From a virus, in the IMG/VR virus record IMGVR_UViG_3300027608_001887, positions 1 to 21,407 of that record: 21,407 nucleotides of DNA. The stretch is one strand, 5' to 3'. The position numbers and the translations under genes were made by a program. Below the pieces are notes generated by a model. The model ran no database searches and was not told the origin of the DNA. It was given only the letters and a program-made list of their open reading frames with translations. Positions 4,832 to 21,407 of the stretch are shown in pieces. The first letter of the stretch is position 1. The number at the start of each line of letters is the position of its first letter.

Positions 4832-4860
4832 TTTTTCTATTTAATTAAAGATTTATTTTT

Positions 4861-4872: not shown

Positions 4873-4911
4873 ATTTAAAAACAGCAAAAAACTGACCAAA
4901 AAAATAATAAA

Positions 4912-4953: not shown

Positions 4954-4956
4954 AAA

Positions 4957-4968
4957 ATATTTATTAAT
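4957..4968 (+). promoter_or_regulatory. A/T element abutting the 49-aa gene start
   Basis: The sequence ATATTTATTAAT lies immediately before the ATG. The identical 12 bases abut the J-domain gene start at 15850. The position leaves almost no leader if it acts as a -10-type element. Confidence 0.45.
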
Positions 4969-5118: not shown

Positions 5119-5131
5119 TTAAACAATCACT
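5114..5131. terminator. Hairpin spanning two convergent stop codons
   Basis: AGTGATT (5114-5120) and AATCACT (5125-5131) form a 7-bp stem with a 4-nt loop, exactly over the abutting stop codons of the 49-aa gene (plus) and the gp15-like gene (minus). Neither side has a T tract, so it is at best a weak bidirectional terminator or 3'-end stabiliser. Confidence 0.35.
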
Positions 5132-6159: not shown

Positions 6160-6161
6160 TT

Positions 6162-6677
6162 TTATAATCCGTTAAATTCATCGTTTGTTACTGGCGATGC
6201 GATTATTGTTCTATAATATTTTTTATATCCACCGTAAGTGTGTTTATTATCCGAAGTAACTCTACCGTCGTTAACTACGGTATAATATCTAACTCGATCT
6301 TCTGTTTCGTAATATGCCAAATAATCACCTAATGAAACGTCAATAGCTAATTGATCCAAATACGTTTGGTAAACACTAAAGGTCATATTACCGGGCTCAA
6401 TTTGTGAAAGTTTTGACGCCCCAAGATCTGCGTTTGTAGGGGCGTCTATCTTAACCAAACCTTTTATTTCTATCGGTGTTAAAAATTGTATACCGCTACT
6501 TAATGCTTCTCCGTACACATCGTCGGTATTTGTTTTTTGTTTGTCAACTCTGTATAATACGACAGTAAAATTCATATCACCTAATTGCCATTCCATGCCC
6601 ATGGATATTTCTAAAAAAAAATCTTCTTCAGAAAAAAACTTATTTAACCTTGTAATTGGGACCTTATTCTGTGACAT
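6162..6677 (-). CDS. Probable neck protein (T4 gp14-like)
   Basis: This 171-aa protein has a DDVYGEAL segment, then GIQFLTPIEIKGLVKIDAP, a GNMTFSVYQTYLDQL strand-helix, and GDYLAYYETEDRVRYYTVVND. The order parallels T4 gp14 (256 aa), in which an LIFGEDL segment is followed by a strand, a VTLSINPNLF-type segment and a GDLIYFPMDNSLFEI segment. gp14 with gp13 forms the neck joining head to tail. It leads the neck/tail operon (2-nt gap to the gp15-like gene) and diverges from the helicase gene across 58 bp. A GTATTTATAGTT element directly abuts the ATG. The shorter length and distant similarity keep the call provisional. Confidence 0.55.
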   Translation of the reverse strand: MSQNKVPITRLNKFFSEEDFFLEISMGMEWQLGDMNFTVVLYRVDKQKTNTDDVYGEALSSGIQFLTPIEIKGLVKIDAPTNADLGASKLSQIEPGNMTFSVYQTYLDQLAIDVSLGDYLAYYETEDRVRYYTVVNDGRVTSDNKHTYGGYKKYYRTIIASPVTNDEFNGL

Positions 6678-6689
6678 AACTATAAATAC
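6678..6689 (-). promoter_or_regulatory. A/T element abutting the gp14-like gene start
   Basis: The coding strand reads GTATTTATAGTT with the ATG following at once. On the opposite strand the same bases contain TATAAATA, the T4 late-promoter core, 48 nt upstream of the divergent helicase gene. Confidence 0.42.
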
Positions 6690-6721
6690 ATTGATTGATT
6701 ATTTATTATTGTTTACTATTT

Positions 6722-6733
6722 TTATTTATATTA
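6722..6733 (+). promoter_or_regulatory. A/T element before the helicase gene
   Basis: TTATTTATATTA lies 2 nt before the ATG at 6736. It is a weaker match to the element seen before other leading genes; the TATAAATA at 6681-6688 is an alternative promoter core. Confidence 0.33.
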
Positions 6734-6735
6734 TT

Positions 6736-8502: not shown

Positions 8503-8513
8503 TATTTATAAAT
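8502..8513 (+). promoter_or_regulatory. Late-promoter-like element before the SOD gene
   Basis: ATATTTATAAAT ends one base before the ATG. The bases 8507-8514 read TATAAATA, an exact T4 late-promoter core, yet they end directly at the start codon. A T4-type start site ~6 nt downstream would fall inside the gene. Confidence 0.45.
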
Positions 8514-8514
8514 A

Positions 8515-9324
8515 ATGGAAGTAAATATTAAATATAACGGAGACACCACAAAAGAACAAAAAGACTTAATGAAAAAATTTGAACAAAAAAACAAAGAGAA
8601 AATAAAATCCGTTTACAAACCATTTCAAAATAAGATCAATGAATTGGAGATTAAATTAAATGAAGATTTAATTTCACATAAAAATATTATTTCAGAAATA
8701 AAAAGTATAAGTGTTGAAAAATTACCTTACGATTATAACTCTGTAGAGGGGTTTATAGATTCAGAAACAATGAAAACTCACTACACAAAGCATTATAAGG
8801 GGTATGTTGAGAAATTAAATATAGAGTTAGAAAAAGTTAAAGGCCCTGATTTGGATATTGAGTCAATCATTAAAAAAATATCTAAATTTAATGATAAAGT
8901 TAAAAATAATGGTGGTGGGGCATTTAATCACGCATTATTTTGGAAAATGTTATCCCCAACAAAACAAGAAATAAAAGACCCAATCAAAAGTAAAATAGAA
9001 AAAACTTTTGGTTCTATGGATAAATTTAAAGAGAAGTTTGAGGAGGAAGCAAAATCCCGTTTTGGTTCCGGTTGGGTTTGGTTAATATTAACAAAAAGTA
9101 ACACTTTAAAAATAGTTACCACACCAAATCAAGATAACCCACTGATGAATACTGAAAAAATACAGGGGTATCCCATATTGGGTTTAGATGTTTGGGAACA
9201 CGCTTATTACCTAAAATATAAAAACCAAAGAGACAAATACGTTAAAAACTTTTGGAAGGTTGTTAATTGGTCGTTCGTAAATGATTTATACGTAACTCAA
9301 ATAGAAAGAAACAAATCAAAATAA
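8515..9324 (+). CDS. Fe/Mn superoxide dismutase with helical N-terminal extension
   Basis: This 269-aa protein converts superoxide to peroxide and oxygen if active. All four metal ligands are visible: H89 (MKTHYTKHYKGYV), H139 (GGGAFNHALFW), and D225 and H229 (GLDVWEHAYYLKY). The second-sphere glutamine in TTPNQDNPLM, together with GGG before AFNH, is the pattern of Mn-type or cambialistic enzymes. Family members are usually ~200 aa. Residues 1-66 are an added Lys/Glu-rich, probably coiled-coil segment before the canonical KLPYDY start, with no signal peptide, so the protein is cytoplasmic or virion-borne. The gene lies 12 nt after the helicase and 27 nt before the gp13-like gene, inside a phage module. 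It could protect infected cells from oxidative stress or be a repurposed structural protein. Confidence 0.9.
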   Translation: MEVNIKYNGDTTKEQKDLMKKFEQKNKEKIKSVYKPFQNKINELEIKLNEDLISHKNIISEIKSISVEKLPYDYNSVEGFIDSETMKTHYTKHYKGYVEKLNIELEKVKGPDLDIESIIKKISKFNDKVKNNGGGAFNHALFWKMLSPTKQEIKDPIKSKIEKTFGSMDKFKEKFEEEAKSRFGSGWVWLILTKSNTLKIVTTPNQDNPLMNTEKIQGYPILGLDVWEHAYYLKYKNQRDKYVKNFWKVVNWSFVNDLYVTQIERNKSK

Positions 9325-9328
9325 TAAG

Positions 9329-9340
9329 ATATTTATATAA
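9329..9340 (+). promoter_or_regulatory. Promoter-like A/T element before gp13-like gene
   Basis: ATATTTATATAA ends 11 nt before the ATG. It lies within a loose inverted repeat, AAGATAT (9326-9332) and ATATCTT (9345-9351), that could fold around the start site. Confidence 0.45.
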
Positions 9341-9351
9341 AAATATATCTT

Positions 9352-10470
9352 ATGACCACATCAATTATTCAAGAACCAGATAGAGGTAAACTCTATAAAA
9401 GAATTAAAAATCTTTTGGGGGCTCCGTTAAGGAGTGTTGAACTAGAGGATGAAATGATGGACTCTTTATTGGAGTTATCAATTCAAGATTATTCCCAACA
9501 CGTAAACGATTGGTTGATTGAAAGTCAGTGGTCGTCTTTGTATGGTTTAAATTTAGATGAGCAATCCGTAACAAGAGCGTTTACGACGAGAAGTTTAGAT
9601 TGGGAAACACAATACACCTATTCGTACTCTAAAATCGTAGGATTACAAGCTGGTGGTGATTACGTTTTGAAAAAAGATTATATAGATTTAATTCCTAACC
9701 AACAAATTTATGAAATACCCGCAGGTAGAGAACTTAACGAATTGTTGTGGTTCTCAAGATCAGAATTGGACGCAGCATATTTTGATCCATTTATGGGTGG
9801 ATTTGGAGGTATGGGAGGTGTTGGATTAGGTGGTGGTGCCGGTTTTTCACAAATGGGAACATCGGGAAATTATTTTGTAACTCCAGCCTTTGATATATTA
9901 TTGAGGATGCAAGACATCAATATTAAACGAAGAATTATAACGGGAGAATTAACATATAGGGTTACCGCATTACCTGAAGGTAAAAAGGCGATACATTTAA
10001 TGAATGTTCCTGGTGGTAAGTTTGATTTTGGTAATATGAAAAATAAAGGTAACAGAGTATGGTATTGGTATTACGATACTTTTGATAGGGAGGACTGTTT
10101 AAAGAAAAATCCAGATGTTGTTAGATTACCATCTGACGTTCCTATTGATGAAACTCGTTGGGATGAATTAAACTCACCAGCGCAGACTTGGGTTAGAAGG
10201 TGGTTTACCGCATATTGTAAAGAAACTTTAGCGAGAGTTAGGGGAAAATATAGTGGTAATTTAAAGACTCCAGATAGTGAGTTAACATTAGAATACACAA
10301 CCTTACAATCCGAAGCGAAAGATGAAAAAACTATGTTGTGGGAAGAACTTAAAACAAGACTTGAAAGGTTGAGGCCCGAAAAACAATGGGAGATCAAAGG
10401 GGCTCAGGCGGAAAATATGAATAAAGCGTTAAAATATAGACCATTTACAAGTCCGTATACTGTAATATAA
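9352..10470 (+). CDS. Neck protein (T4 gp13-like)
   Basis: This 372-aa protein opens with KLYKRIKNLLGAPLRSVELE then DEMMDSLLELSIQDYSQHV and DWLIESQW (to about 60). This is the typical start of T4-type gp13 neck proteins, in which an LGAP-x-x-x-VEL motif is followed by a helix. gp13 helps close the filled head and dock the tail. T4 gp13 is 309 aa. The extra length here includes a glycine-rich loop, GGFGGMGGVGLGGGAG (149-164). The C-terminal third is helical (TWVRRWFTAYCKETLARVRG, then ELKTRLERLRPEKQW). Unlike T4, it is on the opposite strand from the gp14- and gp15-like genes and is separated from them by the helicase and SOD genes. A 110-aa gene follows after 6 nt. Confidence 0.72.
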   Translation: MTTSIIQEPDRGKLYKRIKNLLGAPLRSVELEDEMMDSLLELSIQDYSQHVNDWLIESQWSSLYGLNLDEQSVTRAFTTRSLDWETQYTYSYSKIVGLQAGGDYVLKKDYIDLIPNQQIYEIPAGRELNELLWFSRSELDAAYFDPFMGGFGGMGGVGLGGGAGFSQMGTSGNYFVTPAFDILLRMQDINIKRRIITGELTYRVTALPEGKKAIHLMNVPGGKFDFGNMKNKGNRVWYWYYDTFDREDCLKKNPDVVRLPSDVPIDETRWDELNSPAQTWVRRWFTAYCKETLARVRGKYSGNLKTPDSELTLEYTTLQSEAKDEKTMLWEELKTRLERLRPEKQWEIKGAQAENMNKALKYRPFTSPYTVI

Positions 10471-10476
10471 TTTTTT

Positions 10477-10809
10477 ATGGCAGTTTTTAAATCGATCCCA
10501 TCCAAAAGAATTATAAACGGTAACATTATTGAGACCTCTGACTCAGCTATTGTAACCAATAAAAACTATACTACTAATGGTGAGTATGTTATTGTTACCA
10601 AAGGTGTTGATCTTTGTGTCATATCTTTAGACCACACAAACACAGATCACGTAGTTATAAAATCATTAACAAACACTTTGGTAAAATCCGATACACTCAT
10701 AGACGAAGAATTTAATGAGGTTGAACTAACTAAAGGTTCCTGTGTTGAATTTAAGTATATTGGAAATAACTGGTATGTCCTTTCTAGTGATGGGTTAAAG
10801 GGGTCTTAG
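10477..10809 (+). CDS. Small beta-rich protein, probable virion component
   Basis: This 110-aa protein is predicted from its alternating hydrophobic pattern to be nearly all beta strand: AVFKSIPSKRIINGNII, YVIVTKGVDLCVISLD, DHVVIKSL, and the ending VEFKYIGNNWYVLSSDGLKG. Endings of this WYVLSSDG type are, from memory, seen in small phage head or tail decoration proteins, but I cannot name a family. It has no promoter-like element of its own, starts 6 nt after the gp13-like gene and is probably co-transcribed with it. Its stop overlaps the polymerase stop by 4 bp on the opposite strand. There is no signal peptide or transmembrane segment. Confidence 0.6.
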   Translation: MAVFKSIPSKRIINGNIIETSDSAIVTNKNYTTNGEYVIVTKGVDLCVISLDHTNTDHVVIKSLTNTLVKSDTLIDEEFNEVELTKGSCVEFKYIGNNWYVLSSDGLKGS

Positions 10810-13706
10810 TCAAAAACTAAGGACATTAAGTCACCATCTTCATCAAATTCATAAAGGTCATCAACATCAACTGACTTTTTAACTTTATTCTCCAACATTA
10901 GTTTTCTATTGTGATCAACTCTACTTTTCTCAACAAGTTCCAAAGTATTGTCAATATACATATAGTATGGATCAATACCCACTGTTTGCCAAAATACGAT
11001 CTCCATATCAGATAAAGTTAAGACCTCATCTAAATTATCTTGATCCTTTTCTTTCATTGGATATCCACGACCTAATACTGTTTGTGACTTCGTAAAGATT
11101 GGTTGATATATTGGGTTTTCAATTAAAATGTCTTTTCTAATATCAGGGTTATATACAACAAGTAAGGGTTCAATTCTTTTATTAAATGCTGCTAACGCTC
11201 TCGCCACGTTATAATCACCTAATAAGTCAGGGTTATTTTCTATTTCCTTTTCATCAATTAAATAACAATTTAAGATAACTTCACTTTTTGATAACATTTC
11301 AGGTGGTACGCCCCCGTGAATTTTTGTATAATCCTCAATTTGTTTTTTAGTCATCTTTGTTGTTTTTTTCTGAACATCACCGTGTGATTTCTTTTCACCG
11401 TTATTAACGTAATAGATGGTATCACCTAAACCTGGTTTTTTTCCGGCATTCATTAAAAGTTCCATGTGAGCCTGTCTTGACATTAAACTGCCCGAAATTG
11501 TTTTTTTTGTGATATGTACTTTATAATCGTCAATTGATTGTTTAACACGAGCCTTGTTTGCCATTTTTGCTAAAGGTATTTCTCTGTTGTAAATTTTACT
11601 TACATACTCATAATAAAAATCTAAGAACTCACCACCCTTACCATCAAGTAACATTCTTAACCCTTTATCTAAAAATTCTGCAACATATGTTTGAAGTTTT
11701 TTAGATTTAATTGAGTTACCCGTAAGTTTAACTTTACCTTTATCTGTGAGTAATGCGTAGTTCTTACGAGCCACGTTAATGGTTGCGGGCCATACACCGT
11801 CAATATCAAGACCCATCTCGTTTCTCATAAATAAATCATTATATTCTGCAACATCGGCTTCAGCACCTACGTAGGTTTCACCCTCCTTAACTAACCCGTT
11901 AAGTCCTTTACCTACATAGGTATAGTTTTCTCTATCTTGTGGAGTCTCAAAGTTGACCCCATCCGTGTCAAGAACCAAAGGAACATACCCTCTACTCATA
12001 AAATACATAATCATCTGTCTTAAATACTGTCTTCCTGTACACGTAATCTGCTCTCCCATATCAATGTCTCCCCACGGAAATACGTGAGGTGCTGAGAGAG
12101 AACCGAAGAACGCGTTGATAAAGATTTTAATTGGTAATTGTTTCCTGTCATATGAGACTGAAAGTTTCGGATCCGTTTTTTTAAATTCACTTGCTAAGTT
12201 TTTATATTTTATACGTGTATCTCTAAAGTACTTCAACATACTTTTCATTGATCCTGTTACGTCACAAGATGGGAACACATCGTGAACTAACTGAATGGAG
12301 GGGTATAGTGACGAGTAATCGAGTTTTAATACCTTTCTTGAGTAACCGACCTGAACCAAACGAGAAAGTCCTCCTGTAAATTTTCTTTTCTCTTTCTTTT
12401 TAGGAAGTGCCAATTTGTTTTTATAAGACCACGCACACATAATTATTTTCCATAATGTTGCGGTACCCATCGTTGAGAGTCGTTCATAGGTGGTTGGTAC
12501 CAATTTAGAAAGTAAAAAATTCGCTTGGTTAAACTGTTCGTCAACAACCATAGTCTCATAAAGGTCATCATCAAGATAGTCTTCAATAATTTTTGAACCA
12601 TTAGTTTTCACATATACATCAGTTCTCCTTGAACAAACTTCATCTATCTTTTCGTTGATTCCTATCTTTTTATAGTTACCGTTTTCTTTATTCATCCAAT
12701 AGTCCTCATTGTCAAAATAAATCTTTCCGATTTTATCCCCCTCAACATAAACACGATTTTCTTTTTCTGCCTCAATAAATTTGGTAATATACTTCAAAGA
12801 CCAACTCTTAATGTCAGAGTTAATCGCTTGTGCTCTACGAACCGCATGTGCGATATCCACAATATTATACCCCCACATTTGTGTTTGTACGTATGGTTCC
12901 ATCTCATTCGCCAATTTTAGAATACCGTCTTTTTGTTTTAACGGTTGATCTGCCTTTAACGTTTTGGATATTTTTTTAATGTTTAACTTTAAAATCTCTG
13001 CACGTTTTAAAATAAACGGAAAGTCAAAGAATGCGGAGTTGTACCCACCAATAAGTGACGGTTTTAATTCGTCGATGGTGTTAAAAAACTCAATAATCAT
13101 TTGTCTTTCTTCGTCTTCATTTTGTGCTGATAATAATTTTAGAAAACCACGATTGTCCCTCATCCCGATCAAGAACATTTTACTTGTCTTAGGATCTAAA
13201 CCTGTGGTCTCAATATCGAAGACAAACCTGTGAATTTCATCGTATTCGTCAAACCCTTTAAAGAGTCTTTTACTTTTTTGAATGAGGTACTGTTCTACCG
13301 GAGTCATGATGGTAATCACATCTGAATTATCTCTATCCCAAGGATCAAGACCACCACCCTTAAAAAAGTTCACAAGGTTTGAATATGATTTTGTTGTTTT
13401 GACCAAGAAAGTCAATCCATTTTTTAATCTTTCGTCTCCGCGATCTTCTAATTTTTCTATTATAATGCCGTTTTCAGACATCGCCTTTTTTTGAAAGTCT
13501 TTATTACCTTTATAAAAGTTTTTTGTTCTAAGGTCACCAACCCAAGCAAATGGGATGAATGTATCCATTCTCAAAAGTTTTCCTTTGATTGGATCTTGTA
13601 TTACCTTGAAAATTTTATCTGATTTGTAATCGTATTCTAACGCGACAATGTATTTCTCGTCGTCTTCGCCGTGTAAAAAGCGCTCAATTTCTTCTTGTGG
13701 AACCAT
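10806..13706 (-). CDS. Family B DNA polymerase (T4 gp43-like)
   Basis: This 966-aa replicative polymerase has a proofreading exonuclease. Exo I is FVFDIETTGLDP (D164, E166), Exo II is GGYNSAFFDFP (Y222-D228), and Exo III is plausibly YLDDD (Y377, D381). Polymerase motif A is LKLDYSSLYPS (D463), motif B is KIFINAFFGS (K527, N531, G535), and motif C is VLDTDGVNF (D580, D582). The usual motif C is DTDS; glycine replaces the serine here. T4 gp43 is 898 aa, so the length fits. The start (MVPQEEIERF) is 87 nt past the end of the preceding gene; a CTATTTATTAGG element lies 57 nt upstream. The N-terminal part (1-150) has the beta-rich layout of T4-like polymerases. It would copy phage DNA with the clamp and clamp loader, which are outside this window. 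Confidence 0.95.
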   Translation of the reverse strand: MVPQEEIERFLHGEDDEKYIVALEYDYKSDKIFKVIQDPIKGKLLRMDTFIPFAWVGDLRTKNFYKGNKDFQKKAMSENGIIIEKLEDRGDERLKNGLTFLVKTTKSYSNLVNFFKGGGLDPWDRDNSDVITIMTPVEQYLIQKSKRLFKGFDEYDEIHRFVFDIETTGLDPKTSKMFLIGMRDNRGFLKLLSAQNEDEERQMIIEFFNTIDELKPSLIGGYNSAFFDFPFILKRAEILKLNIKKISKTLKADQPLKQKDGILKLANEMEPYVQTQMWGYNIVDIAHAVRRAQAINSDIKSWSLKYITKFIEAEKENRVYVEGDKIGKIYFDNEDYWMNKENGNYKKIGINEKIDEVCSRRTDVYVKTNGSKIIEDYLDDDLYETMVVDEQFNQANFLLSKLVPTTYERLSTMGTATLWKIIMCAWSYKNKLALPKKKEKRKFTGGLSRLVQVGYSRKVLKLDYSSLYPSIQLVHDVFPSCDVTGSMKSMLKYFRDTRIKYKNLASEFKKTDPKLSVSYDRKQLPIKIFINAFFGSLSAPHVFPWGDIDMGEQITCTGRQYLRQMIMYFMSRGYVPLVLDTDGVNFETPQDRENYTYVGKGLNGLVKEGETYVGAEADVAEYNDLFMRNEMGLDIDGVWPATINVARKNYALLTDKGKVKLTGNSIKSKKLQTYVAEFLDKGLRMLLDGKGGEFLDFYYEYVSKIYNREIPLAKMANKARVKQSIDDYKVHITKKTISGSLMSRQAHMELLMNAGKKPGLGDTIYYVNNGEKKSHGDVQKKTTKMTKKQIEDYTKIHGGVPPEMLSKSEVILNCYLIDEKEIENNPDLLGDYNVARALAAFNKRIEPLLVVYNPDIRKDILIENPIYQPIFTKSQTVLGRGYPMKEKDQDNLDEVLTLSDMEIVFWQTVGIDPYYMYIDNTLELVEKSRVDHNRKLMLENKVKKSVDVDDLYEFDEDGDLMSLVFD

Positions 13707-13793
13707 ATCTATAATTTTAAGTTTGGGTTATTATGCTCACAAAAAATATCGTGATTTCCCTTACCTAATAAATAGTGGTTAAATGGTAAAATG
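13707..13793 (-). promoter_or_regulatory. Leader region of the DNA polymerase gene
   Basis: This 87-nt gap contains a CTATTTATTAGG element (13764-13775 on the opposite strand) that would serve as a weak promoter core 57 nt before the polymerase ATG. No Shine-Dalgarno sequence is present. One frame is open through the gap and reads like protein, but it has no standard start codon. Confidence 0.3.
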
Positions 13794-14147
13794 TCAAATG
13801 ATGTTGATATATAAATTTGAAACTATTGGTGCGATCAACTCTCCGTTTTCTAATACAATCGAAAATTCTCCGATGAATCTTCCTTTTTTATTTGTGTCTC
13901 TTGCCGACCATTTGTAATAGATATAATATTCTCTGTCTGAATCGGGATTTGTTCTATCTTTTTCTGTTAGGTATGCCGGTTGCATAAATATTTTTTGGAT
14001 TCCATTGTCTTCACTTTTCATCGAGAATCGGATGTTTGCGTTATCCAAAATTTCATAAAAGTTTTTCCATGAGTCGGTTCTTCCGTCTCTGATAACATCC
14101 ATTTTAAGGATCGGTAAACTTGTATTTTGTTTTATAAAAAATTCCAT
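13794..14147 (-). CDS. Probable fibre/baseplate-associated protein, 117 aa
   Basis: This 117-aa protein begins MEFFIKQNTSLPILKMDVIR and continues DGRTDSWKNFYEILDNANIR, FSMKSEDNGIQKIFMQPAYL, EYYIYYKWSARDTNKKGRFI and GEFSIVLENGELIAPIVSNL. The layout (conditional material property, binding to a preceding fibre, then a GxFxGEF strand and an L-I-x-P-I ending) recalls the N-terminal domain of phage baseplate upper proteins of the BppU type, where ligand-like segments join fibres to the baseplate. It starts 2 nt after the fibre-like gene, so the two are translated as a pair. The assignment to a named family is tentative, but a virion accessory role fits the position. Confidence 0.45.
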   Translation of the reverse strand: MEFFIKQNTSLPILKMDVIRDGRTDSWKNFYEILDNANIRFSMKSEDNGIQKIFMQPAYLTEKDRTNPDSDREYYIYYKWSARDTNKKGRFIGEFSIVLENGELIAPIVSNLYINII

Positions 14148-14149
14148 TA

Positions 14150-14818
14150 TTAAAAAATATAATCTAAAATGGTTCTACCCCAACCGTTATTGGTTTTTAC
14201 GTATAAATAATCGTCATCCCAAGTTAATTGACCTATAGATCCAAACGTATCTCCAGAAGATGTGGGAGTATAACCATTATTTATAATAAAACTATTTGCG
14301 GTTAATCCACTATTAACTATAATATTTCCTTGAAATGTCCTTGTCCCCCCACTTGGAGATAAAATACTTTCTTTAAGTTCAATTTTATTCGTGATTAAAT
14401 TTAATGTTATTGTTTGTTCGTCCGCTTCTGCTAGCGTTGATATTTCATTATTTAAGTCTTCAGTTAATCCGGTTATTTGAAATCCCCCGCCAATGTTATA
14501 ACTTAACGTTATCGTTCCACCTGTATTATATGTTCCACCAGAAACAAAAGTATCCCCTGATATGTTAAATCCGTTTACTGTTAATGTGTTTGCGGTTAAT
14601 CCGCCTGTAAAATTAGTCGATCCTGTCACAGTTCCACCACTTAACGATAAATAATTACCACTTAATGAAGCACCACTCAATATAAAATCTTTAATTTGAT
14701 CTAAATTAATTTTTTTAGTTAAACTATCGGAAGGGTCGTCAAGTGGTAATACCACTGAGCTTGTTACGTTTCCTGATAAGATTAGTGGTAAATTTAATAT
14801 TCTTCTATCTGTTGCCAT
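14150..14818 (-). CDS. Fibre-like virion protein, 222 aa
   Basis: This 222-aa protein is Gly/Ser/Thr-rich. The N-terminus (MATDRRILNLPLILSGNV) looks like a virion-attachment segment. The middle has short beta repeats (YLSLSGGTVTGSTNFTGG, LTANTLTVNGFNISGDTFVS, GGTYNTGGTITLSYNIGG) typical of trimeric phage fibres. The C-terminus (FGSIGQLTWDDDYLYVKTNN) is a W-D-D-D-Y-L-Y-V-K motif often seen at fibre ends. It probably extends from the baseplate or tail and may contact the host. It is the first gene of a minus-strand unit with the 117-aa gene and perhaps the polymerase. A promoter-like element lies 7 nt upstream in a 27-bp gap shared with the divergent nuclease gene. Confidence 0.68.
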   Translation of the reverse strand: MATDRRILNLPLILSGNVTSSVVLPLDDPSDSLTKKINLDQIKDFILSGASLSGNYLSLSGGTVTGSTNFTGGLTANTLTVNGFNISGDTFVSGGTYNTGGTITLSYNIGGGFQITGLTEDLNNEISTLAEADEQTITLNLITNKIELKESILSPSGGTRTFQGNIIVNSGLTANSFIINNGYTPTSSGDTFGSIGQLTWDDDYLYVKTNNGWGRTILDYIF

Positions 14819-14825
14819 CTTTTTA

Positions 14826-14837
14826 TTATATAAATAT
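14826..14837 (-). promoter_or_regulatory. Promoter-like A/T element before fibre-like gene
   Basis: The coding strand reads ATATTTATATAA, 7 nt before the ATG at 14818. It overlaps the element of the divergent nuclease gene by 4 bp, so one 20-bp stretch carries a copy on each strand. Confidence 0.48.
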
Positions 14838-14845
14838 TTATAAGT
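14834..14845 (+). promoter_or_regulatory. A/T element abutting the nuclease gene start
   Basis: ATATTTATAAGT is directly followed by the ATG at 14846. It overlaps the element facing the other way for the fibre-like gene. Confidence 0.45.
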
Positions 14846-15211
14846 ATGGAAAATGAAAATTATTTATATCACTATAAGGCAAAAGTTTTGGAAATATACG
14901 ATGCCGATACGATTAGAGTTGAGTTAAATCTAGGATTTGGTATTGTTTGGAGGGGTTCGGATAATAGAGGCGTTGAAATAAGATTGTTTGGCCTTAATGC
15001 CCCAGAAATGAAAGGACCCGAAAAAGATATGGGTATAATATCAAGAGATAAGTTAAGGGAACAAATTTTAGGTCAAGAAATCACACTTAAAACAATTAAG
15101 GATAGAAGTGAAAAATTTGGTCGTTACCTCGGAATAATAATTAAATCGGATGGAACAAATATTAATGAATGGTTAATTAAAGAAGGGTTGGCGATTAAAA
15201 AAGTTTATTAA
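14846..15211 (+). CDS. Staphylococcal-type nuclease (thermonuclease family)
   Basis: This 121-aa SNase-fold nuclease cuts DNA or RNA with calcium. The three catalytic residues of the family are in place: R46 (EIRLFGLNAPE), E54 in the same motif, and R93 (KFGRYLG). The acidic metal-binding D21 in YDADTIRVEL is also present. The fold covers the whole protein, which is close to the minimal domain size. There is no signal peptide, unlike secreted staphylococcal nuclease, so it acts inside the cell. It could degrade host DNA for nucleotide recycling or process recombination intermediates. The insert GFGIVWRGSDNRG between strands is typical of bacterial and phage members. Its stop codon overlaps the stop of the convergent membrane-protein gene by 4 bp. 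Confidence 0.9.
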   Translation: MENENYLYHYKAKVLEIYDADTIRVELNLGFGIVWRGSDNRGVEIRLFGLNAPEMKGPEKDMGIISRDKLREQILGQEITLKTIKDRSEKFGRYLGIIIKSDGTNINEWLIKEGLAIKKVY

Positions 15212-15591
15212 TCCTCAAACCAATTAAAAAAAATTGTAAAAGATATACCATATAAAATTCTTGCTATTATTACAAATAAAAGACACTCTATTTTTGAAAG
15301 ACAAGGAATAAATAAAAAGTATACACCAGCAAAAATCATTAAAGTTCTAAACAATTTAAAAAGATGCCAAGCATCTGTAAAACCAACAAATAATGTTTTT
15401 GAAAGAAAAAATCTTTCTCCCTTTAGCGGATCGCCATCTTCGTATTTATTTTTCCACGAACTAGACGGGTCCCAAAAAAGTTGATTTTTAAAATTTTTAA
15501 AAATAGAAATATTGTAGTGAAATTGTAATTTGTCCATTACCGCTTCACAAATTCCAGCGACAAAAAAAAGAATGAATCCAATATAAATCAT
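15208..15591 (-). CDS. Small membrane protein with SWKNKYEDGDP loop
   Basis: This 127-aa protein has hydrophobic segments at about 2-18 (YIGFILFFVAGICEAVM), 80-97 (LFRTLMIFAGVYFLFIP) and 102-120 (ECLLFVIIARILYGISF), so about three membrane spans. Between the first two lies a polar loop with QLFWDPSSSWKNKYEDGDP and a SKTLFVGFTDAWHLFK segment. This FW(D/N)P-x-x-SWKNK-x-x-x-GDP pattern resembles uncharacterised membrane proteins that I recall from Bacteroidota genomes, which suggests acquisition from the host. Its ATG overlaps the TGA of the upstream 65-aa gene (ATGA), so the two are a coupled pair. No function is known; modifying or excluding at the host envelope is possible. Confidence 0.72.
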   Translation of the reverse strand: MIYIGFILFFVAGICEAVMDKLQFHYNISIFKNFKNQLFWDPSSSWKNKYEDGDPLKGERFFLSKTLFVGFTDAWHLFKLFRTLMIFAGVYFLFIPCLSKIECLLFVIIARILYGISFTIFFNWFED

Positions 15592-15785
15592 TTATTATCT
15601 TTTAAAAATTTATAATACCAAATAATTGATGCTATTAAACCGCCATAACTTGGAATAAAAACCGCAATTTTTAAATACCAAGTATCCAAATAACCTTCTG
15701 ATAAAAAATAAGGGTAAAGTATTGAACCCATCAAACCAAACCCAATAGAAAACCAAGAAGATATATGTGTTCCTAAATTTTTCAT
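15588..15785 (-). CDS. Two-span membrane protein, 65 aa
   Basis: This 65-aa protein has two hydrophobic segments: about 10-28 (SSWFSIGFGLMGSILYPYF) and 38-56 (LKIAVFIPSYGGLIASIIW), followed by a basic tail (YYKFLKDNK). It is coupled to the downstream 127-aa membrane protein by a 4-base ATGA overlap, and an ATATTTATTAAT element lies 8 nt before its start. The small size and two spans resemble holin-like or accessory membrane proteins, but no lysis gene is adjacent, so I do not call it a holin. It may be a partner of the larger membrane protein. Confidence 0.65.
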   Translation of the reverse strand: MKNLGTHISSWFSIGFGLMGSILYPYFLSEGYLDTWYLKIAVFIPSYGGLIASIIWYYKFLKDNK

Positions 15786-15793
15786 AATCTTTT

Positions 15794-15805
15794 ATTAATA
15801 AATAT
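15794..15805 (-). promoter_or_regulatory. Promoter-like A/T element before membrane-protein pair
   Basis: The coding strand reads ATATTTATTAAT, 8 nt before the 65-aa ATG. The same 12 bases occur on the other strand before the divergent J-domain gene 33 bp away. Confidence 0.48.
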
Positions 15806-15837
15806 TTACTTATTTAATTAACGACTTAACTAAACAG

Positions 15838-15849
15838 ATATTTATTAAT
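15838..15849 (+). promoter_or_regulatory. A/T element abutting the J-domain gene start
   Basis: ATATTTATTAAT is directly followed by ATG. It is identical, start codon included, to the element before the 49-aa gene at 4957. Confidence 0.47.
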
Positions 15850-16401
15850 ATGACTGATAAATTAAAAAATTTAAAACTTTCACTTCTATTAAAAGAATTA
15901 AAACTTTTAGATTCAGAAAAGGAATATATCGATGAATTTACAAACCATTATAAACCTATTTTTATGGATGAGTTATCAAAAAACGGATATAAACCAAAAT
16001 TAATAACGGGCGAAACAAAAAATAATATTTCAGATACAATAAATAAAAAAATTATAGAGGTAAGTGAGGAAGAATTAAAAACAATAAAAACCGTTTTTAG
16101 ATCTATTGCGAAAATATGTCATCCAGATAAAACAAAAAATCTTTATAGAAATAAATTATACGATCAAGCGCAAATCGCATATGAAATTAATGATTTATTA
16201 AGTTTATATAAAATAACAAAAAAATTAAATATAGATGTTAATCTTACGGTTGATTCATTGGTTTTATTTGAAAAAATTGTTGTGGATAGGAAAAAAGAAT
16301 TAAAAGAGGTTGGATCATCTTTTTTATGGTTATGGGTCAACGAAATTAACGATGAAAAAAAAATGGAAATAATAAATAAATTTATAAAAACACACGGATG
16401 A
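15850..16401 (+). CDS. J-domain (DnaJ-like) protein
   Basis: This 183-aa protein has a J-domain core at about 72-128: helix II EELKTIKTVFRSIAKIC, the invariant HPD tripeptide (H91-P92-D93), and helix III YDQAQIAYEINDLLSLYKIT. HPD is what stimulates the ATPase of DnaK/Hsp70, so the protein likely recruits the host chaperone for phage folding, assembly or replication. There are no Gly/Phe or zinc-finger regions as in full DnaJ. Residues 1-70 are a Lys/Leu-rich helical region, and the C-terminus (140-183) contains FLWLWVNEINDEKK, perhaps the client-binding end. The last codons overlap the glycosyltransferase start (ATGA), so the two are co-translated. Confidence 0.8.
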   Translation: MTDKLKNLKLSLLLKELKLLDSEKEYIDEFTNHYKPIFMDELSKNGYKPKLITGETKNNISDTINKKIIEVSEEELKTIKTVFRSIAKICHPDKTKNLYRNKLYDQAQIAYEINDLLSLYKITKKLNIDVNLTVDSLVLFEKIVVDRKKELKEVGSSFLWLWVNEINDEKKMEIINKFIKTHG

Positions 16402-17582
16402 AAATTGGTATTACATTGGGATTAAAAGACAACAAAGAGTCTATATGGACAAACGGAATAAAACAAAACGTTTTAATGTTGGTTCATCTATTAAATAATT
16501 CAGAAAAAAAATATGATGTCTGTATTTTAAATACGGTGAAGTTAGATTTTACAGAAAAACCATCTTATTTAAATAACATTGATATACATTACCTTAATGA
16601 TAAATTCATGGAAATGGATTTGATTATTGTAATGGGAGCACAAGTACATGATTCACAATTAAAGTCGTTCAAAGCACAGGGTAATAAAAAAGTTGTATCA
16701 TATAAATGTGGAAACAATTATGTTATTTCAATGGAGAGTATCCTTTTTAAAGAAAACGATAAAACTAAAACATACCAATATGAAACAGAATATGATGAGA
16801 TATGGTATGTTCCACAACAACATATGGTTAATTCTGGGTTGTATAGAACATTATATAGAACAGAAGCTATTCCAGTTCCATTTATATGGTCTGAGAAGTT
16901 CTTATTTGAATCTGTGGCTGAAATCCATAAAGGGTTTAAAAATGGACAATATAAGAAAGATTGGCAGTATGAAGTGGGTAAAGATAAAAAAACATTGGGT
17001 ATAATGGAACCAAATTTAAATATTGTTAAATTTTGTTTAATACCTGCTATGATTGCTGAGGAATGTTATAGAGGTGAGATTGGTAAAGAACATATAGAGA
17101 AATTGAGAATCACCAATTCAGGTAACATAAAAGAAAACAAAGAATTCCTTTCAATGGTTGGAACTTTTGATTTATATAAAGATGGAAAAGTAAGTGCTGA
17201 ATCTAGATATCAAACAGCATATATGTTGACTCAACATTTGGATGTTTTAATATGTCATCAAGTTTTAAATCCATTAAATTATTTGTATTTGGATGCTGTT
17301 TATTTAGGTTATCCAATTTTACATAACGCTCCTATGGTTAAAGATCTTGGTTATTACTATGAAGGATCGGATACATATTCTGCGGCTAGAAAATTGGATT
17401 ATATTTTAACTCAACATGATAAAGATATTAAAGGTTACAATGAAAGAAATGATGTTGTATTGCAACGTTATCATATTGAAAATACAGATGTAATTAAAAC
17501 GTATGATCGTTTAATTGATGGATTGTTTAATGGTGGAAATAAAGGGTTAATTTATGATCCGTTTACAAATTTATATAAGTAA
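16398..17582 (+). CDS. DUF2827-type glycosyltransferase-like protein
   Basis: This 394-aa protein matches the DUF2827 family, which I know from bacterial capsule and surface-polysaccharide loci. It shows MKIGITLGLKDNKESIWTNG at the start, DLIIVMGAQVHDSQLKSF, KKVVSYKCGNNYV, a YDEIWYVPQQH segment, RTLYRTEAIPVPFIW (to ~165), MEPNLNIVKFCLIPAMIAEE at about 204-223, and QVLNPLNYLYLDAVYLGYPI then LHNAPMVKDLGYYYEGSD near 290-330. The two-lobed layout suggests a GT-B-type sugar transferase. Substrates are unknown: candidates are host surface glycans, phage DNA or virion proteins such as the adjacent repeat adhesins. It is translationally coupled to the J-domain gene and ends at a bidirectional terminator. 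Confidence 0.8.
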   Translation: MKIGITLGLKDNKESIWTNGIKQNVLMLVHLLNNSEKKYDVCILNTVKLDFTEKPSYLNNIDIHYLNDKFMEMDLIIVMGAQVHDSQLKSFKAQGNKKVVSYKCGNNYVISMESILFKENDKTKTYQYETEYDEIWYVPQQHMVNSGLYRTLYRTEAIPVPFIWSEKFLFESVAEIHKGFKNGQYKKDWQYEVGKDKKTLGIMEPNLNIVKFCLIPAMIAEECYRGEIGKEHIEKLRITNSGNIKENKEFLSMVGTFDLYKDGKVSAESRYQTAYMLTQHLDVLICHQVLNPLNYLYLDAVYLGYPILHNAPMVKDLGYYYEGSDTYSAARKLDYILTQHDKDIKGYNERNDVVLQRYHIENTDVIKTYDRLIDGLFNGGNKGLIYDPFTNLYK

Positions 17583-17604
17583 AACATTTTAATATGAATA
17601 TAAA

Positions 17605-17629
17605 AAAGGAGACCTTTTGAGTCTCCTTT
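17605..17629. terminator. Bidirectional Rho-independent terminator
   Basis: A perfect 9-bp stem, AAAGGAGAC (17605-17613) with GTCTCCTTT (17621-17629), encloses a 7-nt loop. It is followed by CTTTTT on the plus strand and by a T run on the minus strand. It lies between the converging glycosyltransferase and adhesin genes and can serve both. Confidence 0.88.
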
Positions 17630-17646
17630 CTTTTTGATTGTTAATT

Positions 17647-17676
17647 AAATCAGTTGATTAAATTTCTCCACCATCA
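17647..17676. repeat. 30-bp repeat at adhesin 3' end, copy 1
   Basis: This stretch is identical to 19146-19175. It covers the last codons and stop of the 475-aa gene plus ~11 bases beyond it, so the paralogy extends outside the reading frame. It includes the small inverted repeat AATCA-GT-TGATT. Confidence 0.9.
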
Positions 17677-19085
17677 GTAATTGTCCAAGTGTAGTTGTCA
17701 ATGATATCCTGTCTTGCTGTTGCTCCAGCAGAAGTATATTCAATTGAACCCATGTCCAAAGTTACATTAGGTTGTAGAGTTAATAATGACCAAGAATTTA
17801 ATATGTTGTCATAAATAAGAGGATTAAAATCTGCTGGTGTTTTACCATACATAAAATTACTCATATAAATTACATTAGATATATCCCATTCGTTGATGTC
17901 TCCATTGAATGATGTTGCATTAGAGAACATATTAGACATATCAGTCACAGAAGATACATCCCATCCACCAATCCCTCCGTTGAATGATGTTGCTTCTTGA
18001 AACATCCCACCCATATTAGTTACAGATGACACATCACTGAATATGTAATCGGTAATTTTAATACCACTGGAACGACCCAAAAATGATGTTGCCCCAGCAA
18101 ACATACCAATCATACTAGTTACAGCTGAAGTGTCCCAAGAACTAATGTTTTGATTGAATGCTGTTGCACCTTCAAACATACTTTCCATATTAGTTACAGA
18201 AGATACATCCCAAGAATTTAATGGTTGGTTAAATGAAGTTGCACCTTCAAACATGTTACTCATATCTGTTACAGAAGATACATCCCATGAATTTAATGGT
18301 TGATTAAATACAGTTGTACCATAGAACATAAAACTCATATTAATTATAGCTGAAGTGTTCCATCCACTAATGTCTTGGTTAAATGAAGTTGCACCTTCAA
18401 ACATACTACCTATCTCAATTACATTAGATATATCCCATGAACTAATATTTCCGTTGAATGCTGTTGCAAAAGCAAACATACCACCCATCCCAATTACATT
18501 AGATGTATCCCATGAACTGATATTTCCATTAAATAATGTACCACTAAACATATAAATCATAGAAGTTATTCCAGATACATTCCATGAATTGATATTTGGT
18601 ACACTTGTTAATGACGAACAATCAGCAAACATGCTATTAAAATTAGTTGTTCCTATTAAATCAAATATTCCATTTACTGTTGTTAAGTTTGTACATCCTG
18701 CAAAATATGAACCATCATTTCCTAGTTTAAGTGATCCGATGTTTGTGATTGATGTTATTTTTTGAGAATCTAAACCATAATTAAATGACCATCCCTCAAT
18801 TGTTCCTGTGATTGTAATTGTGTACACTCCTCCTGTTGCATAAGTATGTGAATAAAACCCCGTTATAAGTCCTCCACTACCTTGAACATTGTCCGTGTTT
18901 CCATCACCCCAGTTTACAGTGAAATTGTAGTTGCTAGAAGCACCTCCTAATGGTAGTGTAATGGAAGGATTTTCATCACCTAGTGTTGTATCCCATACTG
19001 AGATAAAGTCGGTTCCACCACCTCCACCGTTTCCGCCTGTGGTTGCACCTTTGATTCTTAATTTTCCGTTTACGTTAATTGGCAT
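17658..19085 (-). CDS. BspA/DUF285-repeat protein, shorter paralog (475 aa)
   Basis: This 475-aa protein has four parts. First comes an N-terminal tag (MPINVNGKLRIKGAT) with a glycine linker. Second is a PKD-like beta domain (WGDG at 59-62, SHTYATGG at 80-86). Third are about nine ~25-residue units (166-397) of the form x-x-W-D-x-S-x-V-x-x-M-x-x-M-F-x-x-A-x-x-F-N-x-x-I, the DUF285/BspA leucine-rich-repeat type. Last is a conserved ~60-residue end (SIEYTSAGATARQDIIDNY). BspA-type proteins bind host surfaces in bacteria; in this phage the protein is most likely a receptor-binding or decoy adhesin on the virion. It has no signal peptide and no membrane anchor, which argues against a secreted host protein. 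One repeat near residues 336-350 is irregular. It is the downstream paralog of the gene ending at 19157. Confidence 0.85.
   Translation of the reverse strand: MPINVNGKLRIKGATTGGNGGGGGTDFISVWDTTLGDENPSITLPLGGASSNYNFTVNWGDGNTDNVQGSGGLITGFYSHTYATGGVYTITITGTIEGWSFNYGLDSQKITSITNIGSLKLGNDGSYFAGCTNLTTVNGIFDLIGTTNFNSMFADCSSLTSVPNINSWNVSGITSMIYMFSGTLFNGNISSWDTSNVIGMGGMFAFATAFNGNISSWDISNVIEIGSMFEGATSFNQDISGWNTSAIINMSFMFYGTTVFNQPLNSWDVSSVTDMSNMFEGATSFNQPLNSWDVSSVTNMESMFEGATAFNQNISSWDTSAVTSMIGMFAGATSFLGRSSGIKITDYIFSDVSSVTNMGGMFQEATSFNGGIGGWDVSSVTDMSNMFSNATSFNGDINEWDISNVIYMSNFMYGKTPADFNPLIYDNILNSWSLLTLQPNVTLDMGSIEYTSAGATARQDIIDNYTWTITDGGEI
17692..17753. repeat. 62-bp exact repeat encoding adhesin C-terminus, copy 1
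   Basis: These 62 bases are identical to 19191-19252 and encode the shared MGSIEYTSAGATARQDIIDN end of both adhesin genes. Confidence 0.9.
17895..18590 (-). repeat. Tandem ~75-bp coding repeats of the shorter adhesin
   Basis: About nine units encode the DUF285 repeats (residues 166-397). Spacing is 75 bp, except for a 72-bp first unit and an enlarged unit of 99 bp that lacks its tryptophan. Confidence 0.85.
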
Positions 19086-19091
19086 AATTTT
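19018..19091. repeat. 74-bp exact repeat over adhesin start, copy 1
   Basis: This stretch is identical to 21222-21295. It spans the first codons, the ATG and the bases just before it, encoding the MPINVNGKLRIKGATTGGNG tag. Identity across the start codon marks a recent duplication or ongoing gene conversion. Confidence 0.92.
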
Positions 19092-19145
19092 AAGTTTTAA
19101 ATTTTTTATTTTGTTATTGTAATAACTACTAGTATATCATGTTAA

Positions 19146-19175
19146 AAATCAGTTGATTAAATTTCTCCACCATCA
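19146..19175. repeat. 30-bp repeat at adhesin 3' end, copy 2
   Basis: This is the partner of 17647-17676, crossing the stop codon of the 710-aa gene. Confidence 0.9.
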
Positions 19176-21289
19176 TTAATTATCCATGAATAGTTGTCAA
19201 TGATATCCTGTCTTGCTGTTGCTCCAGCAGAAGTATATTCAATTGAACCCATATCCCAAGTTACTCCAGTTTGTAGAGTTAATAGTGACCAAGAATTTAA
19301 TAAGTCATCGTAATAATCATAATCTGCTGTTGATTTACCAGTCATAAATGAATCCATGTATGTTACATTAGATATATCCCATCCATTGATATCTTGGTTG
19401 AATGCTGTTGCACCTTCAAACATAGCCCCCATATTAGTTACCGCTGCGGTATTCCATCCACTAATATCTTGGTTAAATGCTGTTGCCTGAGTAAACATGT
19501 TACTCATATCGGTTACAGAAGAAACGTTCCATCCACTAATGTCTTGATTGAATGCTGTTGCATTCTCAAATATAGCACCCATATCGGTTACAGAAGAAAC
19601 ATCCCATAAACTGATGTCTTGGTTAAACGATGTTGTATTACTAAACATACTATTCATATTAGTTACAGCCGCGGTATTCCATCCACTAATGTCTCCATTG
19701 AATGCTGTTGCATTAGTGAACATATAACCCATATTAGTTACAGAAGAAACGTTCCATGAATTTAATGGTTGATTGAATGATGTTGCATTAAAAAACATCT
19801 GATACATATCAATTACAGAAGAAACATTCCATGAGTTCAATGGTTGGTTGAATGATGTTGCATTATAAAACATACTATTCATACCAGTTACAGAGGATAC
19901 ATCCCATCCACTAATGTCTTGATTGAATGATGTTGCATTATAGAACATATAACCCATATTTATTACAGAGGATACATCCCATCCACTAATGTCTTGATTG
20001 AATGATGTTGCATTATAGAACATAGTACTCATATAAATTACAGCTGAAGTGTCCCATCCACTGATATCTCCGTTGAATGCTATTGCACCAGAAAACATCT
20101 CATTCATATCAGTTACAGCTGAAGTGTTCCATGAATTTAATGGTTGGTTGAATGCGGTTGCATCGTTAAACATGCCACCCATATTAGTTACAGAAGAAAC
20201 ATTCCATGAATTTAATGGTTGGTTGAATATTGTACCATAGAACATATAACTCATATCAGTTACATTTGAAACATCCCATCCACTGATATCTTGGTTGAAT
20301 GATGTTGCATCAGAAAACATATATATCATATCAGTTACAGAAGAAACATCCCATGAGTTCAATGATTGGTTGAATGCTGTTGCCCCCTCAAACATACTGT
20401 GCATATCAGTTACAGCTGAAGTGTTCCAAGAGCTAATATTTCCATTAAACGATGTTGCACCAGCAAATACACTATTCATATTAGTTACAGAAGATACATC
20501 CCATGAGTTCAATGATTGATTGAATGCTGTTGCTCCCACAAACATCTGATACATATCAATTACAGAAGAAACATTCCATGAATTTAATGGTTGGTTGAAT
20601 GATGTTGCATCAGCAAACATACTATTCATACCAGTTACAGAAGATACATCCCACGAATTTAATGGTTGGTTGAATGATATTGCATTAATAAACATACCAC
20701 CCATCTCAGTTACATTTGAAACATCCCATGAATTTAATGGTTGATTGAAAGATGTTGCACCATTAAATATGTCACCCATACTTGTTACAGCCGATGTATT
20801 CCAAGACCCAATTCCATTTACTGAGGTTAGAGAGGTACAGCTGTCAAACATACTACTAAAATTTGTAGTTCCTGTTAAATCAAATACACCTCCAATTGTG
20901 GTTAAGTTTGAACATCCATAAAAATATGCACCTTCATTTCCTAGTTTAAGTTGTCCGATGTTTGTGATTGAAGTGATTTTTTGACAATCTCCAACACCTG
21001 CGAATGACCATCCTTCAATTGTTCCGGTGATTGTAATTGTATATATTCCTCCTGTTGCGTATGTGTGAGTTACTTCTGCTTGATCATATGCTGTGATTGT
21101 ATCAGTGTTTCCATCACCCCAGTTTACACTAAAGTTGTAGTTACCAGAAGCAACTAATGGAAGTATAATGGAAGGATTTCCATCACCTAGTGTTGTATCC
21201 CATACTGAGATAAAGTCGGTACCACCTCCACCGTTTCCGCCTGTGGTTGCACCTTTGATTCTTAATTTTCCGTTTACGTTAATTGGCAT
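19157..21289 (-). CDS. BspA/DUF285-repeat protein, longer paralog (710 aa)
   Basis: This 710-aa protein has the same architecture as its neighbour: the MPINVNGKLRIKGAT tag, a glycine linker, a PKD-like domain (WGDG at 57-60, THTYATGG at 74-81), then repeats and the conserved end. Nineteen full units of 25 residues (one of 24) run from residue 161 to 634, followed by a partial unit. The consensus is N-S-W-D-V-S-S-V-T-x-M-x-x-M-F-x-x-A-T-S-F-N-Q-P/D-L/I. Units alternate between QPL-NSW and QDI-SGW endings and between D-V-S-S and N-T-S-A forms, which looks like mixing of modules. It probably forms a long solenoid displayed on the virion to bind the host surface. Upstream is an A-rich leader without Shine-Dalgarno sequence; 71 bp separate it from the shorter paralog, and no terminator is visible there, so the two may be co-transcribed. 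Confidence 0.87.
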   Translation of the reverse strand: MPINVNGKLRIKGATTGGNGGGGTDFISVWDTTLGDGNPSIILPLVASGNYNFSVNWGDGNTDTITAYDQAEVTHTYATGGIYTITITGTIEGWSFAGVGDCQKITSITNIGQLKLGNEGAYFYGCSNLTTIGGVFDLTGTTNFSSMFDSCTSLTSVNGIGSWNTSAVTSMGDIFNGATSFNQPLNSWDVSNVTEMGGMFINAISFNQPLNSWDVSSVTGMNSMFADATSFNQPLNSWNVSSVIDMYQMFVGATAFNQSLNSWDVSSVTNMNSVFAGATSFNGNISSWNTSAVTDMHSMFEGATAFNQSLNSWDVSSVTDMIYMFSDATSFNQDISGWDVSNVTDMSYMFYGTIFNQPLNSWNVSSVTNMGGMFNDATAFNQPLNSWNTSAVTDMNEMFSGAIAFNGDISGWDTSAVIYMSTMFYNATSFNQDISGWDVSSVINMGYMFYNATSFNQDISGWDVSSVTGMNSMFYNATSFNQPLNSWNVSSVIDMYQMFFNATSFNQPLNSWNVSSVTNMGYMFTNATAFNGDISGWNTAAVTNMNSMFSNTTSFNQDISLWDVSSVTDMGAIFENATAFNQDISGWNVSSVTDMSNMFTQATAFNQDISGWNTAAVTNMGAMFEGATAFNQDINGWDISNVTYMDSFMTGKSTADYDYYDDLLNSWSLLTLQTGVTWDMGSIEYTSAGATARQDIIDNYSWIINDGGEI
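19191..19252. repeat. 62-bp exact repeat encoding adhesin C-terminus, copy 2
   Basis: This is the partner of 17692-17753, base-identical over 62 bp. Confidence 0.9.
19388..20809 (-). repeat. Tandem 75-bp coding repeats of the longer adhesin
   Basis: Nineteen units encode DUF285 repeats. Most differ at several positions, but two neighbouring units share an exact 62-bp block (19888-19949 and 19963-20024, offset 75), the mark of a recent unit duplication. Confidence 0.92.
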
Positions 21290-21295
21290 AATTTT
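21222..21295. repeat. 74-bp exact repeat over adhesin start, copy 2
   Basis: This is the partner of 19018-19091, covering the start codon and tag of the 710-aa gene. Confidence 0.92.
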
Positions 21296-21319
21296 TTAAA
21301 TTTTATTTGTTTATTAAAA

Positions 21320-21347
21320 AACATCGGAGGATTTCTCCCCCGATGTT
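21320..21347 (-). terminator. Rho-independent terminator of the gene at the right edge
   Basis: An 8-bp stem, AACATCGG (21320-21327) with CCGATGTT (21340-21347), lies 22 nt past the stop of the right-edge gene. On the minus strand a run of T residues follows the stem. It separates that gene from the 710-aa adhesin, which must then use its own promoter in the ~30 bp between hairpin and ATG, or rely on read-through. Confidence 0.85.
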
Positions 21348-21369
21348 AATTTTAAAGTTAATCTAATGA

Positions 21370-21407
21370 TTAATACATACCATAAACAGCAACTTTATCA
21401 CCAGCAA
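21370..21407 (-). CDS. C-terminal 11 codons of a minus-strand gene cut by the right edge
   Basis: Reading leftward from the edge, one frame gives AGDKVAVYGMY then TAA at 21370-21372. The strong terminator just beyond it supports this as a true gene end. Too little is visible to assign a function. Confidence 0.6.
   Translation of the reverse strand, partial: AGDKVAVYGMY

Follow-up and report, generated by a model that had tools for sequence, protein, structure and literature searches.

The 21,407-nt IMG/VR virus record IMGVR_UViG_3300027608_001887 (the window, by which we mean this whole metagenomic stretch, which comes without an isolate) carries two DUF285 adhesin-like genes on its minus strand, gene A (17658..19085, 475 amino acids) and gene B (19157..21289, 710 amino acids), arranged head to tail with a gap of 71 bp. 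We consider it probable that they encode interchangeable adhesins: a peptide common to all of them would dock them to the virion, and their conserved ends would let whole cassettes be exchanged. The pair had been noticed in a first-pass annotation of the window, which described two tandem genes of these lengths in a phage context and read them as adhesin-type repeat proteins with no signal peptide or anchor evident from the sequence; on all of these points, with two minus-strand open reading frames (ORFs) present, its description stands. That annotation also proposed that A and B recombine with one another and so shuffle their repeats, which our comparisons do not support: the variation that is clearly visible is the replacement of whole cassettes in one slot. 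Both proteins belong to the DUF285 and TIGR02167 families, with tandem 25-residue repeats that score above the curated cut-offs (Pfam DUF285, 311 bits for A and 697 bits for B, cut-off 25; NCBIfam TIGR02167, 138 and 339 bits, cut-off 30), and Pfam found no other domain in them beyond a sub-threshold PKD match in B.

The slot in question lies between a large fibre gene and a DUF2827 gene, and its contents vary among about 20 related phages (48 loci, many of them redundant, were obtained by searches with the DUF2827 gene and the fibre N-terminus). The fibre gene precedes the adhesin slot; its 3′ end is at 21370..21405 on the minus strand (the last 11 codons, AGDKVAVYGMY, and the stop), the contig ending inside the gene. 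The same or nearly the same C-terminus occurs in L009, L013, L141, L145, L154 and other loci, the gene is complete in relatives, and the order fibre gene then adhesin gene recurs in L009, L010, L013, L014 and L199. The far border, in the 24 relatives inspected, is the DUF2827 gene (16398..17582, plus strand; 394 amino acids, Pfam 335 bits). What stands between them is diverse: DUF285 proteins, leucine-rich repeat (LRR) proteins of the LRR_4/LRR_8 type, CBM5/12 carbohydrate-binding modules (CBMs), ConA-like lectins and unknown proteins. The window has two DUF285 genes, L013 a CBM5/12 and a DUF285 gene, L010 a double DUF285 gene and a CBM5/12 gene, and L014 an LRR and a DUF285 gene; one or two LRR genes are found in L087, L139, L144, L146 and L154, an LRR fused to a CBM in L150 and L151, a ConA-like lectin in L194, and unknown proteins in L141 and L143. 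The LRR proteins mirror A and B: they too are paralogues in tandem, their ends constant and their cores differing in the number of repeats.

Unrelated as they are, these proteins have in common a short motif, KLR[VI]KG[VA], which we call the tag. DUF285, CBM and unknown proteins have it at the N-terminus and LRR proteins at the C-terminus; it is internal in LRR-CBM fusions (between LRR and CBM in L150, L151 and L194) and in the long LRR protein of L156. By our own count about 20 of the 21 complete DUF285, LRR or CBM proteins in the slots of relatives and the window carry it, the variant TSIKGVN on the L013 CBM protein being included, and it is missing from the slot enzymes (GT25 glycosyltransferase, sulfotransferase and APS kinase) and from the SET proteins. 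Searched for as a nucleotide pattern in ten contigs (about 1.17 Mb), KLR[VI]KG occurred 15 times, in every case inside the slot when hit positions were compared with the locus coordinates, and the reversed pattern occurred in the same ten contigs not once. The peptide is fixed while its codons differ among phages (TTA, CTA, CTT or CTC for Leu; AGA, CGT or CGA for Arg), and it is therefore conserved as protein. Proteins of one genome tend to have the same local variant: in L010 a DUF285 protein and an unrelated 64-amino-acid CBM protein have both the variant MSINVNGKLRIKG and its DNA in common, and in L014 KLRVKGVGQ stands at the C-terminus of one gene and the N-terminus of the next. The first-pass suggestion of a modular N-terminal tag is supported by these data.

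A separate observation concerns a second lineage, at L202:12657-20487 (the same in L203 and L204), where four or more complete proteins, each about 500 amino acids long, begin with a different common start, MTQx[KR]VGWR, in place of KLRxKG; they sit behind the same kind of fibre gene, and one has a ConA-like lectin domain.

The anatomy of A and B, all of it on the minus strand, is that of constant ends around a variable core. Each protein begins with the tag MPINVNGKLRIKGAT (19041..19085 in A, 21245..21289 in B), followed by an N-cap (18612..19013 in A, modelled mainly as beta strand at low to medium confidence; 20831..21220 in the homologous B, where the PKD match scores 19.5 bits against a cut-off of 27), a repeat core and a C-cap (17658..17840 in A, 19157..19333 in B). 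The core of A has nine DUF285 units of 25 residues (17841..18611), with a 33-residue insert at about 17991-18089, and that of B has 20 such units, each of 75 bp (19334..20830); the earlier count of about nine was correct for A, and that of about 19 for B falls short by one. Four blocks are identical in the two genes: 75 bp over the start codon, holding the tags (19017-19091 = 21221-21295), 40 bp just past the tag (18974-19013 = 21181-21220), 62 bp in the C-cap (17692-17753 = 19191-19252) and 30 bp across the stop codons (17647-17676 = 19146-19175). The 62-bp and 30-bp blocks were already reported; the first had been given as 74 bp, and the 40-bp block is an addition. The description of these ends as base-identical is true of the extreme ends and fails for the N-cap as a whole, which is 81% identical between A and B in DNA and 77% in amino acids, with differences at 13 of 58 four-fold sites.

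Chance can be excluded for the shared ends: the tag block has no difference in any of its 23 codons, nor the C-cap in any of its 19 comparable four-fold sites, while the N-cap has diverged, and this identity exceeds what shared ancestry at the average rate would leave. We also considered an assembly artefact, either a collapse or a duplication, and, judging from the assembled sequence, think it unlikely: the identical blocks are at most 75 bp, below the usual read length, and A and B differ throughout.

The same ends recur in other phages. The leader of A (19086..19154) and its tag match those of the L013 DUF285 gene exactly over 110 bp (19045-19154), and 182 of 186 bp agree over the leader, tag and start of the N-cap; the neighbouring DUF2827 region is 74% identical between the two phages and the upstream gene differs, being in L013 that of the CBM5/12 protein. 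L009 matches A exactly over 77 bp and B over 75 bp at the conserved ends. L011 matches the C-caps exactly, over 62 bp with A and 76 bp with B, and its DUF285 protein (L011:9938-11086, with a counterpart at L012:7477-8625) has N- and C-caps near-identical to those of A and B, another gene neighbourhood and another start, MAIQIAISNAVGSRSRST; it marks the border of the tag module. This pattern of sharing fits an exchange of cassettes between phages via short conserved stretches.

Replacement on a larger scale is seen in L072, which is 90-94% identical in DNA to the window over most of 2375-14160 (88.7% in one stretch), a core of about 12 kb, and which from 14150 onward has a different fibre module with an 870-amino-acid fibre, so that the whole variable block of the window (14150..21407) is substituted. 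No DUF285 gene was found upstream next to the polymerase in those polymerase relatives (up to 98% protein identity) that have a long enough flank, nor anywhere in five of their contigs, G011-G015 (72-229 kb), and DUF285 is therefore not a fixed trait of the lineage.

Changes within the repeat arrays are less conspicuous. Constant ends around a core of varying unit number, as first proposed, are indeed found among relatives, which have from about 7 to 20 units. In the window the closest pair of units is 91% identical, and B has no internal duplicate larger than a tract of 150 bp at 90% identity; the units have diverged, and there is therefore no sign of recent flux in copy number. First and last units tend to match the first and last units of other genes, and the inner units show no obvious order. 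Comparison across relatives had been suggested as the way to detect changes in number and order: unit number does differ, and the sole near-identical pair of contigs, L011 and L012 (99.99% over 12 kb), has identical DUF285 arrays.

How might such a system work? We suppose that in this large phage of myovirus type A and B are alternative or co-displayed receptor-binding proteins in a slot directly behind the large fibre gene, each built of a short tag (GKLR[VI]KG and a glycine linker), an N-cap, a DUF285 solenoid and a C-cap. The tag would serve as a docking peptide and hold the adhesin on the virion, the upstream fibre being its most likely attachment point, and the surface of the solenoid, or in other occupants the carbohydrate-binding module, would face the host and bind a glycan or protein there. 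Since the DNA of tag, leader and caps is conserved, co-infecting phages could exchange different adhesins as cassettes by homologous recombination; unit number would shift more slowly, by occasional internal copying. The anatomy, the distribution of the tag, the replacement of cassettes among relatives and the sharing of conserved ends between phages are observed, and docking, virion location, host binding and recombination as the route of transfer are inferred from them. A bolder version, which we offer tentatively, sees in the tag a universal plug for adhesins: about eight residues, placed at either end or between domains, would join solenoids, lectins and carbohydrate-binding modules of unrelated structure to a single site on the virion, with dialects specific to lineages (KLR[VI]KG here and possibly MTQx[KR]VGWR in L202-L204). 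If that were true, several adhesins could be displayed at once and swapped with no redesign of the fibre.

Several observations weigh against the proposal of docked, exchangeable adhesins. Two slot occupants, the L147 LRR protein (1036 amino acids) and a 382-amino-acid protein of L194, have no tag, and the slot of L145 is empty; at the level of strains, no change was seen in progress. The L014 fibre had no informative match in Pfam or PHROG, searches which are weak for diverged fibres, and the docking partner is a guess because the fibre has no informative domain match. The identical ends could in part reflect selection on DNA or RNA instead of recombination, and the virion location and host binding suggested for A and B rest on metagenomic sequence. 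Finally, the models of A and of an LRR relative show a repeat body, capping regions and, at one or the other end, a tag of low confidence (pLDDT about 36 in A and about 37 in the LRR relative), so that the tag, short and poorly modelled at either terminus, could be a flexible linker. Structure prediction of the tag had been recommended from the outset as a test of virion docking; its outcome is compatible with a flexible docking peptide and falls short of proof. By sequence A and B have no relatives of solved structure, and a fold search with the model of A (pLDDT 74, moderate) returned no PDB match at E ≤ 0.001, its weak top hits being mostly LRR proteins.

Could the tag, then, be a flexible linker between domains or a recombination handle acting at the level of DNA, the adhesins attaching by their N-cap or solenoid? 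Its internal position in the LRR-CBM fusions and in the L156 LRR protein, the Gly/Pro-rich linkers that follow it, the low model confidence and the near-identity of its DNA in several genes would all suit such a role. We nevertheless hold this to be unlikely, since a fixed peptide with differing synonymous codons argues against selection on DNA only, in most of the proteins the tag stands at a free terminus, N or C, a place that calls for no linker, and it is found on unrelated folds and not on the slot enzymes. The mechanism put forward in the first-pass annotation, mutual recombination of A and B via identical ends with shuffling of repeat number and order within one phage, seems to us less probable still. 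It draws on the exact 75-, 62- and 30-bp blocks at both ends, on the difference of nine units versus 20, and on L010:1498-4038, an 846-amino-acid protein in which two DUF285 proteins are joined C-cap to N-cap with loss of the inner tag, as expected of tandem copies that lose their junction, and which shows that tandem copies can fuse; in addition, 24 of 75 units have their best match within their own gene, a modest excess over the 11.6 ± 3.7 obtained by label shuffling. Against it, the partner gene is the best match for a mere one of the nine A units and one of the 20 B units, near-identical adjacent units of the sort that recent expansion leaves are absent from the arrays, and the L011 and L012 arrays are unchanged. 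The end blocks, moreover, are not private to the pair: we reject A-B recombination as the main source of the identical ends, the same blocks being present in L009, L011 and L013.

That the proteins act inside the infected cell as accessories which are not part of the virion is, in our judgement, very improbable. The lack of an evident signal peptide or anchor would be in keeping with it, as would the distribution of DUF285 in phages (114 records by tblastn), where the genes are scattered across genomes and often annotated as hypothetical. Such a role sits poorly with a position directly behind the fibre gene, with exchange for carbohydrate-binding and lectin domains that have the same tag, and with replacement of the whole block by a fibre module in L072. 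Docked adhesins exchanged as cassettes remain the explanation we prefer.

Other features of the window and its relatives complete the picture. A strong intrinsic terminator with a 12-pair stem followed by a run of T stands between the fibre gene and B (21320..21347, minus strand), and gene A is separated from the convergent DUF2827 gene by a terminator-like hairpin (17605..17629, plus strand). A sheath match indicates a phage with a contractile tail; the sheath (1601-4831, minus strand, 1076 amino acids) has recognisable sheath domains only in its C-terminal third, the Pfam match starting at residue 794, and matches a huge uncultured phage at 31% identity. The window polymerase (10806-13706, 966 amino acids) has relatives up to 98% identical in IMG/VR, several related contigs exceeding 200 kb; its closest cultured matches are Salinibacter phages at 23-26% identity, and no cultured phage is close. 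Moraphages (PMC12619734) came into consideration as its lineage on account of genome size and aquatic habitat. In L072 the polymerase ORF (5676-8717) is longer, with 1013 amino acids, and its alignment to the window breaks near window positions 11270-11368, possibly at an insertion. A 269-amino-acid ORF between the SNF2-like helicase and head-tail adaptor genes (8515-9324, plus strand) has motifs, GSGWVWL and LDVWEHAYYL, that resemble those of an iron/manganese superoxide dismutase. By eye we recognised no reverse transcriptase of a diversity-generating retroelement (Mtd-like) in the 21-kb window, for which no family search was made and of whose genome the rest is missing. In the relatives, sulfotransferases, a GT25 glycosyltransferase and, in L146, an APS kinase stand between the adhesin genes and the DUF2827 gene (L139:11247-13070, L146:6957-9270, L156:14602-16419) and may modify the fibre, the adhesin or the host surface; a small SET-domain-type protein lies just downstream of the fibre gene in L151:15199-15573 and L194:14654-15031 (Pfam was tested for L151 only).

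If our explanation is right, sequence alone suffices to recognise, by the tag, the receptor-binding proteins in an uncultured lineage of large phages, and a minimal attachment peptide becomes a testable prediction. One virion could then take up recognition folds that are unrelated to each other, among them the LRR and DUF285 solenoids familiar mainly from the surfaces of bacteria, and a change of host range in these phages would be a question of cassette exchange.

DNA-level shuffling of variable repeats is not new for the DUF285 family; the PARCELs (DUF285/TIGR02167, BspA-like), described in 2010, have variable copy number, and transfer and intragenomic shuffling were proposed for them (PMC2996958). 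A and B resemble them in their tandem units of 25 residues, in which hydrophobic positions are fixed and polar ones vary, their variable copy number, ORF-specific ends and a sporadic distribution that suggests transfer (PMC2996958). They differ in standing in a putative receptor-binding slot of a phage, in a tag common to unrelated folds, in the lack of an evident membrane signal and in the lack of dyad symmetry in their coding DNA by an exact-arm test: neither repeat tract has exact inverted repeats of at least 9 nt within 150 bp, as judged against synonymous-codon shuffles, a test that leaves room for weak imperfect dyads, Roske et al. (2010) having used statistically derived palindrome motifs. 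PARCEL/DUF285 and BspA-type genes are also present in a large myovirus, the Vibrio jumbo phage vB_VhaM_pir03, where, in the portion of that account considered here, DUF285 is annotated only and a tag, a slot or cassette exchange are not described (PMC7765460). Our search of the open-access literature brought up no case in which several unrelated recognition folds in a dedicated slot all have one short motif, whatever its position.

In T-even phages the gp38 gene stands behind the fibre gene, and the slot of A and B is likewise directly downstream of one (fibre C-terminus 21370-21405). In T2, PP01 and S16 the tip of the large distal fibre bears gp38 as an adhesin in its own right, with conserved attachment and variable recognition parts; it attaches by a larger N-terminal region (113 residues were exchanged between T2 and PP01) and contains loops together with glycine-rich motifs (PMC12892980). 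A and B, in contrast, have no large gp37-binding domain or glycine-rich lattice, the tag being followed by the N-cap and DUF285 repeats; DUF285, LRR or CBM modules would here be attached by a tag of about 13 residues, and related slots usually hold one to three adhesin genes. A short conserved peptide is what the slot proteins have in common with RBP2 of Klebsiella phage KP32, which docks to RBP1 by a conserved N-terminal peptide and has a variable recognition module (PMC13082707), docking in the present case being suggested by sequence. RBP2, however, is a trimeric depolymerase with its peptide at the N-terminus, whereas here the modules are solenoids or CBMs, the motif is N-terminal, C-terminal or internal, and Pfam finds no enzymatic depolymerase domain in A or B; the KP32 partner has a T4 gp10-like branching domain, and none was identified in the L014 fibre by Pfam or PHROG, weak tools for diverged fibres. 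The nearest precedents of the slot adhesins are these two: the gp38 tip adhesins and the KP32 RBP2 with its conserved peptide.

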